Of a stretch of 64,000 nucleotides of DNA, positions 52,609 through 56,980 are shown piece by piece. The translations under genes were made by a program, and so were the position numbers. Location of the stretch: NCBI RefSeq assembly GCF_001027745.1, contig NZ_LECU01000005.1:310001-374000 (forward strand). The letters run 5' to 3'. The notes under the pieces were generated by a model. It worked only from the letters and a program-made list of their open reading frames with translations. It did not search any database and was not told the DNA's origin. The first letter of the stretch is position 1. The number at the start of each line of letters is the position of its first letter. This DNA is from Pedobacter sp. BMA. GTDB taxonomy: Bacteria; Bacteroidota; Bacteroidia; Sphingobacteriales; Sphingobacteriaceae.

Positions 52609-53889
52609 AAAAGCACTGCCAAAAGCGGCTTCAAATACCCCCCTCTATACAGATAGAAAACATTCATTAATCTGGGAATAGTAAACATATTCCAACAACA
52701 ATTCCAGGCATCAAAATTTACGATTAAAGCTACCTTACGGTGTGTTTCAAGATCCTTGGAAACACCCAGAAAACAACAAAATCTACAGGTCTAATTTCAT
52801 AAGCACAATGCGTAAATGCAAGCTCAACATGAAACTAAATATAGCTGATGTGCTTACATTTATGAATCCAAAAGCACGGCCTATTACACTAGAGCTTCAG
52901 GCAAAAAAGAACATGTGAAGGCTAATGAATTGAGCCAAAGAGGCCGTATTTTAGGAAACATTAAGCCGGGAACACATTTTGAGCAAAAAGCCAAAACAAA
53001 GACACAAAACACTAATAATCAGTAATTTAAATATTTATTAATAATTTTCAATAAAATTACGGTTAAAGTCGTCAATGAGCGAATATCGCAAAGAAACCTA
53101 ATTAAGCGGCTGTTTTCAGCACTAATTCAGCATGATTTGTATACAAATTCGGCAAACAAGACATCTGAAATACAGAATATATTAACTCCAAACCGATCAC
53201 AATCTAGGCAATTCGACCCGGCAATCAGCGAATCTTATCAGGTATATAGCGATGGTCCATTATTCTAAAAAGGATCAGAAGGGCCAGATCCATATGAAGT
53301 AAACAAAATTAGAAAGCCAGTTACGAAATTCAAAACATGCCATAATGGCACTAATATATAGAGCAGCTGAAAAATCTTATGGTTGTTTATCAGACTTTAT
53401 TCTTGAAGAGTAGTACAAAAACCAACCCGGCCTAAGTGGCCTAAATCCGCCACCCCTTCCAAAACCACCACGCAAACACAACACTTTAATTCTTCGGTTT
53501 CAAAAAAAGTGAATTAGCAATTCCAGGAAACCGACAATTTTGACTACACATTCAGCCTTCTATACCTAATAACTATAATGTTGTATTCTTCAACCTAGCC
53601 GAAATATGGGTAACCTAAATCCAGTATTGCTGATGTTTTTTTCGAAGAAAATGATTTAAATAGTGTAATTTAAGATCGTTATTCGCATCCTTCAAAAAAT
53701 TTATAATATTACTAAGTAGAGGTAATTTAGAGATAAATAAAAGCGGCAGTAACGCACATTATCTGAAATTGTACAAAACAAATAATAATTTAAAGATCAA
53801 TGCTTTAACAAATATTAACTAAATTAAAAAACCATAAAGGTTGACATTTGGAAAAAATGAAAAACTAAATATTTTAGCAAACTATTTAA
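52609..53889. other. Gene-free 1.28 kb region with possible gene remnants
   Basis: No ORF of 60 codons or more is found on either strand and no tRNA or repeat array is visible. A 58-codon open stretch at 52849-53025 (plus strand) begins without ATG and reads ...YIYESKSTAYYTRASG... then NELSQRGRILGNIKPGTHFE; it is preceded in another frame by a 36-codon ATG ORF at 52808-52918. This looks like a decayed or frameshifted small gene. Further on, short open pieces without starts suggest more decay. An imperfect hairpin lies at about 52740-52770 and a GGCC-TAAGT-GGCC inverted repeat near 53430-53440. The right end (53847-53877) is the promoter of the next gene. Confidence 0.5.
53847..53877 (+). promoter_or_regulatory. 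Promoter of the large outer-membrane protein gene
   Basis: TTTG (53847-53850) lies 19 bases before TATTTTAG (53870-53877), one base away from TAnnTTTG. The ATG at 53890 is only 12 bases after the box, so the leader is very short. Confidence 0.5.
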
Positions 53890-56694
53890 ATGAAGATAAA
53901 AAACAACAATAATAAACTATTCATCAAGCATTTAACAGCATTGACATTAAGTCTTATTTCATCATCTGTTTTTGGACAGATTTTCAGCAGTGCTCAAAAC
54001 CCACTTAGTGTAAAATGGAACTATATTTCGGCCAGTGGCTTTAAAATCATCTATCCGCGGGAACTGGAAAAGGAGGCGCAAAGAATGGCCAATACCCTAC
54101 CCTCCATCTACCCCAGAATTGGGCTGGGCTTGCACCAGGAAAAAACTTCTATTCCGCTTATCCTCCAGAACCAGGGAACCATAGCAAATGGATTTGTTCA
54201 GCTTGCTCCGCGCAAGTCTGAGTTCTATACTACCCCACCACAATATTTCGATAGCCAGGATTGGCTAAATAACCTGGCTGTCCACGAGCTCCGACATATT
54301 GCTCAGTTTGACAAATTGACAGGAACACAAACACATCCCTTCCCCGAACTGGTTTATTTCGCCTACTTCGGGGCGGGGATGCCGACCTGGTTTTTCGAAG
54401 GTGATGCGGTGGTAAATGAAACTGCGCTAACGAAATCAGGAAGAGGCCGACAGCCCAATTGGATCATGCCCTTCAGAGCCTCCATTCTGGAAGGCGAAAA
54501 ATTCTCTTATAGCAAAGCATACTTCGGATCAAATAAAGATGTCACTCCCGGCTATTATCAAACCGGCTATACGATGGTCGCGAACATGAAGGCACAGCAC
54601 GGACAATTCATTTCCGACAGCCTACTTGGCGACATCAGAAAAAGACCGCTAAGACTTTACCCCTTCTCCCAAAGCCTTAAAAAAATCACCAACCAAAACA
54701 CAAAAGATTTCTATCTTTCTACTCAGGAAAAACTGAAGCGAGAATGGATGAACCAGCTTAAAAAAGACCAGAAAGAAAACTACCTGTCCGCCAACAAAAA
54801 AACCACTCTGGCAACCAACTATTTTTTGCCTGTAAGGTTGAATAAAAATCAGATCCTGGCACTTAAAGAAAGTAAACAGGAAGCAAGATATTTTGTGATC
54901 ATCAACGATGATAAATCAGAACAAAAATTATTCGGGATTGGTTATCAGGAGCAGCCCTGGTTCAGCTACAAAAACAACACCCTGATCTGGGATGAAATAA
55001 GATACGATCCAAGATACAAACAAAGAAGCTATAGCGTAATCTGCTCCTACAATTTCATCACAAAAAAAATCAGGAAATTAAGCAGCCGAAGCCGCCTCTT
55101 CTCCCCCAGTCTTTCGAACGATGCAACAAAAATTATTGCGGCCAAAGTAGAACTTAACAATCAGTTTAATCTTGTTGAAATAGAAACCTCGTCGGGAAGA
55201 ATTTTAAAAACTTATCCTAATCCTGAGAATGAAATTTTACAAACGCCGGCTTTTGATGAAGCCGGAAAAAAGATCGCTTATATCGGCGTTAGCGAACAGG
55301 GCAAAAATTTAAGTATGCTTGAAAACGGGACGAAAAAAATAATCATCGCGAACAGCAGACAACAAATCAGCCGGCCGGTTTTTATCGGCGAACAAATTCT
55401 GTTCAACGCGCACTTTAATGGTACCGATAATATTTACGCGATCGATCCGCAGACCAAAAAAATTGAAGCACTAACGAACTCCAGATATGGCGCATTCAAT
55501 CCTGGCGAAAGTCAAGATGGTAAGCTAATCTTCAATGACTATAAGCTAAACGGATACGAAATTACTGAGCAAATACTTAGCCCAAAACCAATAGGCGAAG
55601 ATGCTTTTGTGGACTTCGCCTCAGCGGCAGAAAAACAGGAAAACACGGGAAACGTTTTCAACAATATTCCAGACAGTATTTTCAAGTCTAAACCCTATCA
55701 TCAGGCGCTGAACCTTTTTAGTTTTCATAGCATTATCCCAACCATTGATGACGAATATACATTCGGACTGGAACTTCAATCTAACAATCTGCTCAATACT
55801 ATGAGCGTTTACACAGGTGCAAAATTCCATAGAGATTTGAAGCGCTTCGAATACACGGCAGACATCAGCTATAAGGCACTCTATCCTGTATTGACTGTAC
55901 TTTACCGCAACCGACCGAGAAGAACGTTCTATCGCGCTAAAAATGCGATTCAGCAAGGCGACTGGCGGGAGAACTATACCAAGCTGAATGCTTCCCTCCC
56001 ATTGTCATTTAATGCAAGAAATAACACCTATGCATTTACCCTAAATGCCGCAACGAGTTTTACGCAACGCTACCTTCCCGAAAACATGCCTGCCAACTTT
56101 ATTCGCGAACTTAAATTCCCAATGGAGTACAGCTTTGCTTTAAATCACAGCACCAGAACTACTGAACGGGATATCGCTCCAAAATGGGCGCAGGTTTTAC
56201 GGGCTACCTACAATCACCAACCCTTCGATAATAATTTAGGGGGAGAGATTATGGCTTTGGAAAGTTTCTTTTATTTCCCGGGACTGGCAAAAAACCACTC
56301 CTTCCTGGTCAGCTTCAATTACCAGAAAGCAACTGGCGCAAACCAATACTCTACCGAAATATCTACCGTTTATGGTTACAATAATATTTTAGCAAAAAGT
56401 AAATTACAAAACACCCTTTTGTTCAATTACCGATTTCCATTTGCATTCCCTGACTGGGAGCTTGGCCCACTGGCCTATGTAAGAAATTTCAGGGCAGGTT
56501 TTTTTAGCCACTATGAAAACATCGGTGTTGATACCAATATCGGGGAACCTAAAACTTTTGGATTAGAATTAAACAGTAGCTTAAACATTTTGAGGTATCA
56601 GCCTGTTGTAGATGTTGGAGCGAGGTTGGTTTTTGTTCACAAGATATACAATCAAAATCCGATATTAGAGTTTTCATTTAATTATAGCTTTTAA
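53890..56694 (+). CDS. Outer-membrane protein with metallopeptidase-like, propeller and barrel regions
   Basis: A 934-residue protein with a signal peptide (1-29, ending SSVFGQ). The first module (about 40-290) has HELRH (132-136), an HExxH zinc motif, and a later Glu in FFEGDAVVNE (about 170), spaced as in gluzincins. The middle module (about 300-560) has repeating beta blades such as LFSPSLSNDATKI, QTPAFDEAGKKIAYIG, ISRPVFIGEQILF and YGAFNPGESQDGKLIF, typical of TolB/WD40 propellers. The last module (about 625-934) looks like a beta barrel and ends EFSFNYSF. Whether it is active is not known. The LapA-like gene follows by 4 bases. Confidence 0.7.
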   Translation: MKIKNNNNKLFIKHLTALTLSLISSSVFGQIFSSAQNPLSVKWNYISASGFKIIYPRELEKEAQRMANTLPSIYPRIGLGLHQEKTSIPLILQNQGTIANGFVQLAPRKSEFYTTPPQYFDSQDWLNNLAVHELRHIAQFDKLTGTQTHPFPELVYFAYFGAGMPTWFFEGDAVVNETALTKSGRGRQPNWIMPFRASILEGEKFSYSKAYFGSNKDVTPGYYQTGYTMVANMKAQHGQFISDSLLGDIRKRPLRLYPFSQSLKKITNQNTKDFYLSTQEKLKREWMNQLKKDQKENYLSANKKTTLATNYFLPVRLNKNQILALKESKQEARYFVIINDDKSEQKLFGIGYQEQPWFSYKNNTLIWDEIRYDPRYKQRSYSVICSYNFITKKIRKLSSRSRLFSPSLSNDATKIIAAKVELNNQFNLVEIETSSGRILKTYPNPENEILQTPAFDEAGKKIAYIGVSEQGKNLSMLENGTKKIIIANSRQQISRPVFIGEQILFNAHFNGTDNIYAIDPQTKKIEALTNSRYGAFNPGESQDGKLIFNDYKLNGYEITEQILSPKPIGEDAFVDFASAAEKQENTGNVFNNIPDSIFKSKPYHQALNLFSFHSIIPTIDDEYTFGLELQSNNLLNTMSVYTGAKFHRDLKRFEYTADISYKALYPVLTVLYRNRPRRTFYRAKNAIQQGDWRENYTKLNASLPLSFNARNNTYAFTLNAATSFTQRYLPENMPANFIRELKFPMEYSFALNHSTRTTERDIAPKWAQVLRATYNHQPFDNNLGGEIMALESFFYFPGLAKNHSFLVSFNYQKATGANQYSTEISTVYGYNNILAKSKLQNTLLFNYRFPFAFPDWELGPLAYVRNFRAGFFSHYENIGVDTNIGEPKTFGLELNSSLNILRYQPVVDVGARLVFVHKIYNQNPILEFSFNYSF

Positions 56695-56698
56695 CACC

Positions 56699-56980
56699 AT
56701 GAGCGGAAAAACCATTTTCATCATCATCTTAACTGTATTGCTTACCGTATTTCTGATGGTGAACACCGAACCCGTTGATTTCGATTTTCTTGTCGCAACG
56801 GTTCCAGTATCTAAACTTCTGGTCATCGGCATCTGTATTGTAATCGGATTCATCATTGGCTTTGTAGCTGGTCGTCCACGCAAAACAATCAGCAGCTACG
56901 ACGATGAAATTGAAAGGAATCAATCGACTCCTGCAAACAAAAAGGAGTTGAGCGACGAAGACAGAGAGTACATTAGTTAG
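56699..56980 (+). CDS. LapA (DUF1049) domain membrane protein
   Basis: A 93-residue protein with two transmembrane helices (about 4-22 and 39-59) and a charged C-terminal tail, as in LapA/YciS proteins linked to LPS assembly. LLTVFLMVNTEPVDFDFL is the family N-terminal pattern. It starts 4 bases after the preceding outer-membrane protein gene, so they are probably co-transcribed. Confidence 0.72.
   Translation: MSGKTIFIIILTVLLTVFLMVNTEPVDFDFLVATVPVSKLLVIGICIVIGFIIGFVAGRPRKTISSYDDEIERNQSTPANKKELSDEDREYIS

Follow-up and report, generated by a model that had tools for sequence, protein, structure and literature searches.

A probable WD40-type Omp85 protein with a conserved gluzincin-type domain in Pedobacter

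Omp85 proteins act at the outer membrane, into which they insert other proteins or across which they move them; their N-terminal domains lie in the periplasm, and BepA-like quality-control proteases work next to them as separate chains. For the E. coli components, passages of two accounts describe BepA as promoting LptD maturation or degrading LptD, probably on the β-barrel assembly machinery (BAM; PMC8423444), and BamB as a propeller (PMC13067283). Passages of a 2014 survey set out a WD40-Omp85 subfamily, which carries a TolB-like propeller and is likened to a BamA-BamB fusion, and a "Metallo" class of Omp85 proteins that is defined by a different domain, PF00149 (Heinz and Lithgow, 2014; PMC4104836). 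In the open-licence literature, judged mostly from titles, the starts of abstracts and passages, we recognised no description of an Omp85 protein that has a propeller and a metallopeptidase together. Here we consider such a candidate, encoded on the + strand at 53890-56694 of a window (the whole stretch of DNA analysed, 64,000 nucleotides) from Pedobacter sp. BMA (contig NZ_LECU01000005.1, positions 310,001 to 374,000 of the forward strand). We rate this 934-residue protein as a WD40-type Omp85 protein with a conserved gluzincin.

The features of the gene are given below, where "rows" are those of a diverse 46-row alignment of the family and "sisters" are 19 related proteins of the same phylum.

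53890-56694, + strand: whole gene, 934 residues (open reading frame, ORF, with translation)
53890-53976, + strand: predicted signal peptide, residues 1-29 (by eye from the sequence; cleavage expected before the conserved Gln30)
53995-54783, + strand: putative zinc-peptidase domain, residues ~36-298, a Peptidase MA relative by profile match to the sisters, with 12 of the 13 invariant positions
54283-54297, + strand: HELRH, residues 132-136, two probable zinc-ligand His and a probable catalytic Glu (roles by homology)
54382-54402, + strand: PTWFFEG, residues 165-171, in which Glu170 is the probable third zinc ligand (by homology)
54556-54558, + strand: Tyr223, candidate transition-state residue (46/46 rows, 19/19 sisters)
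54772-55590, + strand: TolB-type β-propeller, residues ~295-567 (TolB sequence and fold matches)
55723-56691, + strand: barrel, residues 612-934, ending in Phe; Omp85 superfamily most likely (model and profiles)
56371-56379, + strand: YGY, residues 828-830, in a loop of the model and opposite the Omp85 RG(F/Y) in the alignment, with the Arg replaced (model and alignment)

A sequence-only reading of this DNA had proposed that HELRH and a Glu 34 residues further on form a gluzincin-like zinc site in front of TolB-like blades and a predicted barrel, and had named conservation of His132, Glu133, His136 and Glu170 as a check. The pattern is present, with Glu170 lying 34 residues past His136 within PTWFFEG, and the four residues came through the check in full. 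Specifically, they are invariant in all 99 rows of one alignment (one of them the 934-residue protein itself, with two duplicate pairs included) and in all 46 rows of the diverse alignment, whose median pairwise identity is 18% (one pair exceeds 95%). Among the 66 His and Glu positions of the protein they are the sole invariant ones in the 46 rows, the median identity at these 66 being 5/46. Invariance is concentrated in the same part of the chain: 12 of the 13 invariant positions out of 934 fall in the peptidase domain, N100, W125, R185 and Y223 among those conserved throughout the 46 rows, and in the 99 rows the P-x-W-x-x-E-G pattern keeps P165 and G171 in every row and W167 in 94. In the full-length AlphaFold2 model (52 sequences, mean predicted local distance difference test score, pLDDT, 76; predicted template modelling score 0.75), H132, E133 and H136 share the helix 125-144 and E170 sits on a second helix, 166-180. 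Across the phylum, a single-sequence query matched 107/247 genomes at an expectation value (E) of 1e-5, some of these matches covering the propeller only; the fetched part of these matches (40 regions, overlapping in part with the genes of L004-L029) gave 40 family ORFs, all with HExxH, and a further phylum match, a 363-residue propeller protein in L116, is without it. The peptide patterns by which a set of 69 Pedobacter-group loci was located do not include the zinc site, and the set is thus free of selection for it. As to the composition of our alignments, A1 leaves out 18 of these 69 loci, A2 lacks four of L002-L030 (29 loci), A3 leaves out L075 and A4 leaves out L294.

The identity of the N-terminal domain comes from the sisters. 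On the 934-residue sequence by itself no Pfam family reaches its cut-off; the single match, H-NS (E 0.098), lies below cut-off and was dismissed as chance. PF13485 (Peptidase_MA_2) likewise gave no match for the protein itself, and of 19 other family members scanned nine match, all from a distant HEFTH-like branch of the family, with L030 (36.5 bits) and L133 (35.1 bits) exceeding the cut-off of 32.4. A search with PF13485 in 41 genomes of the phylum yielded 30 loci with ORFs of 939-1,530 residues, several of which are the same ORFs as those matched by PF01103 (Omp85). Of nine proteins tested, L310 among them, five have a single ORF that scores above the Pfam cut-offs of Peptidase_MA_2, PD40 and Omp85, and the other four do so for Peptidase_MA_2 and PD40; L293 is not counted, its Omp85 match being absent in one Pfam scan and reaching 48.7 bits for PF01103 in another on the same ORF. 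Twenty regions were fetched as a sister set, of which L310 belongs to the distant branch of the family itself, and the comparison was repeated with 19 (E 6.1e-78 with 20 rows, 6.8e-63 with 19). Against these 19, the 46-row family aligns end to end over 871 columns with probability 100, and each part matches separately (peptidase 1.2e-24, propeller 1.1e-38, barrel 7.3e-10). When the distant branch is removed (35 rows), the whole chain still aligns end to end (2.3e-44), and the peptidase domain gives 7.5e-18. In the 20-row comparison HELRH pairs with HELVH and PTWFFEG with PLWMVEG, and the same four zinc-site residues are invariant in 19/19 sisters. Judged from these profiles, the N-terminal domain is a divergent Peptidase-MA relative of the gluzincin type, which would be expected to bind zinc and to cut proteins. 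Membership of M48 was rejected: no Pfam M48 match was obtained, and the profile comparison with 30 M48 proteins gave E 0.0015, versus 1.2e-24 for the sisters.

One sister, a divergent protein of apparently the same design, is encoded elsewhere in the same genome (L291:4314-7487, contig C2 near 99-102 kb) and has 1,058 residues with HELVH and RGYESNS. It was found through PF13485 (35.8 bits) and not by the 934-residue query, and gave no Omp85 match at E 0.01.

The middle module bore out the TolB-like blades that had been read from the sequence. TolB of NCBIfam matches the protein alone at E 4.7e-6, with a score far below the model cut-off, and matches 24/26 family members, at best with 1.6e-43. 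Solved TolB chains are the best sequence match, and TolB is also the best match by fold (Foldseek); VIA-align against the solved TolB 3iax gives Z 21.9 and a root-mean-square deviation of 2.9 over 235 residues (319-566 of the model). Neither zincin nor Omp85 chains are among the matches listed from the full-model fold searches, these lists being filled by propellers and so having no bearing on either module.

The barrel, too, was recovered as predicted, in one model: 16 strands of at least nine residues over 612-933, plus one of three residues, with pLDDT 55-92 for the block in the full-length model and Phe as the C-terminal residue of the chain. In Omp85 barrels the motif (V/L)RG(F/Y) follows strand 11 and precedes strand 12, and YGY falls between model strands 11 (804-814) and 12 (841-852); in the 46 rows the motif columns hold Gly in 36, Tyr or Phe in 41 and Arg in 18. 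Profile comparison of the 46-row barrel with 29 Omp85 proteins of the phylum (5 of 34 loci, L141-L144 and L169, were left out because no usable motif was seen by eye in partly cut ORFs) gave probability 95 and E 2.1e-8 over 148 columns, with the RGY region on LRGY. The controls gave 0.15 for PorP, 0.11 for FadL (a set from which 5 of 27 loci were dropped by length) and 0.16 for reversed Omp85, and as a positive control one Omp85 group compared with another gave 4.3e-37. With these negative comparisons the PorP and FadL barrel types were rejected. The path to Omp85 runs through relatives: between the barrels of the protein's own branch and the distant branch the match has E 4.1e-8 (289 columns), the distant-branch barrel in turn matches Omp85 at 2.9e-12, sister barrels match Omp85 at 1.5e-22, and a joint profile made from 18 sisters, 7 family rows and L310 picks up solved BamA barrels, at best with E 2e-12. 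We conclude that the barrel most likely belongs to the Omp85 (BamA) superfamily, via the distant branch.

These data suggest a model in which an N-terminal gluzincin, followed by a TolB-type propeller, takes the place of POTRA domains in front of an Omp85 barrel. Given that the N-terminal domains of Omp85 proteins are periplasmic, the most likely location of the peptidase and the propeller is on the periplasmic side, beneath the barrel. The propeller may hold client or partner proteins, which the peptidase may cut below the barrel or next to it, and cleavage at the membrane would clear or mature proteins that are exported or reside in the outer membrane. E. coli uses separate BepA, BamB and BamA, which invites comparison with a fused set: the protein might work like the E. 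coli peptidase (BepA), propeller (BamB) and barrel (BamA) merged in one chain. We advance this periplasm-facing metallopeptidase and propeller on an Omp85 barrel tentatively, giving it somewhat less than an even chance. A broader version, which we regard as doubtful if well short of far-fetched, is that the family constitutes a separate Omp85 class with its own protease (i.e., a built-in equivalent of BepA-BamB-BamA that unites client capture by the propeller, cleavage by the gluzincin and the barrel), that it belongs to the Pedobacter core genome, and that its distant branch is coupled to an inactive protease secreted by the type IX secretion system (T9SS), perhaps as regulator or cargo. With the protease inside the Omp85 chain of a phylum-wide family, assembly-proteolysis coupling would become directly testable in one protein, and the WD40-Omp85 group would gain a testable function where the passages of the 2014 survey hold a hypothesis only (PMC4104836).

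Several observations weigh against this periplasmic peptidase-propeller-barrel model. The position of the motif Arg is occupied by Tyr in 68/69 Pedobacter-group rows and by Phe in 1/69, and with the Arg lost in this group the barrel may not act like BamA. Without the distant branch the direct match to Omp85 is weak (35-row barrel, E 0.0018, or 0.0015 when realigned), as is that to the sister barrels (E 0.0014), and the 46-row family gives just E 0.0011 against one six-protein Omp85 subset; the Omp85 assignment is thus transitive. Controls for the 35-row barrel (FadL 0.045, reversed 0.14, PorP 0.23) are somewhat worse than its Omp85 match. The zinc site is among the parts of the model with least confidence: around it, pLDDT falls below 50 at residues 94-115, 121-126, 148-158, 184-186 and 206-221, and residues 36-298 folded by themselves (69 sequences) gave pLDDT 46 and that model was not used. 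Zinc binding, proteolysis and clients are thus predictions. Finally, passages of one study describe in the Bacteroidota BAM a surface-side six-bladed propeller subunit, BamI, different from the TolB-type one (PMC12578637), and a propeller at BAM can thus come from elsewhere; term searches of two 2025 studies of that BAM found neither "peptidase" nor "metallo-" nor "TolB" (PMC12611786, PMC12578637).

Alternatively, the protein could be a dedicated maturation protease that trims particular exported or surface cargo at the outer membrane, and not a general quality-control factor, which we think unlikely while granting it a real share of the probability. The genomic context of the distant branch speaks for it. 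There, the gene lies directly downstream of one encoding a protein of NF052323 ("T9SS-dependent M6-like inactivated metalloprotease"; 5/5 tested upstream proteins score over the cut-off), the same upstream cluster occurs in 8/10 fetched loci, and a DUF5683-type gene follows in 9/10 (of two proteins tested, one was over the Pfam cut-off). The distant-branch loci with the M6-like neighbour are L121, L124, L125, L126, L133, L134, L135 and L136. NF052323 was found in 94 genomes at E 1e-60 (89 over cut-off), and in at least 52 of these a family match follows it on the same strand at a distance of no more than 6 kb, a lower bound that derives from 114 matches, with most same-class matches left out and at least one overlapping pair, in G176, missed, and in which many matches cover the propeller only. 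This operon favours export-related maturation for the distant branch only. However, all 94 genomes lie outside the protein's own class, its own genome has no M6-like protein at the same threshold, and among the 94 the family match lies elsewhere only in 25 and is lacking in 17. Moreover, the near neighbours of the gene in the window (LptG, EamA and a LapA-like protein by Pfam, together with one that we take to be Tgt) are unlike export cargo.

A different placement, in which the barrel lets the peptidase and the propeller through to the cell surface to serve there as a nutrition or defence protease, strikes us as quite improbable. Such export has been proposed for the patatin-Omp85 protein PlpD, a precedent discussed in the 2014 survey (PMC4104836, section 10), but the part to be moved would be ~560 residues long and would include a closed propeller. 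Distribution, too, is more in keeping with a housekeeping role than with an accessory enzyme at the surface. The gene is carried by 116/119 Pedobacter genomes and by 109/109 of those that are near-complete (≥90% complete, ≤5% contaminated); in its own genome the one match at E 0.01 is the protein itself (i.e., it is single-copy).

We give slightly less weight, and little in absolute terms, to a zinc site that serves binding or structure in a non-proteolytic assembly factor. Passages on BepA do describe it as promoting client assembly and not degradation alone (PMC8423444), but the invariance of the ligands extends to Tyr223 and to Glu133, which would be expected to act as the catalytic base, and a structural zinc would require neither. 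Equally small is the probability we attach to a barrel of another outer-membrane type, with Omp85 confined to the sisters. The lost motif Arg and the weak match to Omp85 without the distant branch (E 0.0015-0.0018) speak for it, but the two steps from the protein's own branch to the distant branch and from there to Omp85, the 16 model strands and the negative PorP, FadL and reversed controls argue for Omp85. A chance HExxH in an ordinary outer-membrane propeller protein has next to no credence with us: no Pfam family exceeds its cut-off on the single sequence, but the invariance of the site in the 99-row and 46-row alignments and the homology to Pfam-recognised Peptidase_MA_2 domains speak against it.

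The surroundings of the gene add less. Its own start resembles a signal peptide: Q30 is kept in 98/99 aligned rows, and the model has a helix at residues 2-23. Downstream lies one further feature:

56699-56980, + strand: LapA-like small membrane protein (PF06305, 30.4 bits against a cut-off of 28), after a 4-base spacer

That a LapA-like gene follows had been pointed out in the sequence-only reading, correctly. It adjoins in 68/69 Pedobacter-group loci and in L100, from another genus of the taxonomic family; at the exception, L075, the search missed it, and the downstream sequence resembles its start by eye, in another frame. None was detected in 19 more distant loci (L101-L119), and LapA as a functional link beyond the family was accordingly rejected. 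The three modules of that reading stand, and its four residues are invariant; the protease function and the substrate selection by the propeller that it suggested are still predictions, and the LapA neighbour is family-level synteny that says little on function. Upstream, positions 52609-53889 comprise 1.28 kb without an ORF above 58 residues, with a guanine-cytosine content of 33% versus 41% in the gene. In 68 Pedobacter-group loci (L075 was left out of this comparison as well), the 2.7 kb preceding the gene supplied 84 ORFs of ≥80 residues, none of which gave a match at E 1e-3; the segment may be what is left of a decayed gene.

Set beside known systems, the protein shares with the three-module sisters (Peptidase_MA_2, PD40 and Omp85) of the same phylum, of which our literature searches yielded no description, the same modules in the same order and the same zinc site (19/19). 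The sisters differ in length (939-1,279 residues) and in that Pfam recognises their domains, whereas the 934-residue protein falls below all cut-offs. TolB, a soluble periplasmic protein, shares the propeller fold (Z ~22) and nothing else. With BamA the likeness lies in the barrel, since the joint profile matches solved BamA barrels, but the family has a propeller and a peptidase and not POTRA (none in the Pfam results of the protein and the family members scanned), and the motif Arg is lost in the Pedobacter group. BepA, BamB and BamA taken together offer the same parts (metallopeptidase, propeller, Omp85 barrel), but on separate chains, and with a peptidase of M48, another family to which the match is weak. 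With the WD40-Omp85 subfamily, the nearest kind among those published, the protein has in common a TolB-like propeller ahead of a probable Omp85 barrel and no POTRA; it differs in its peptidase, which is not mentioned in the main text of the 2014 survey (PMC4104836).

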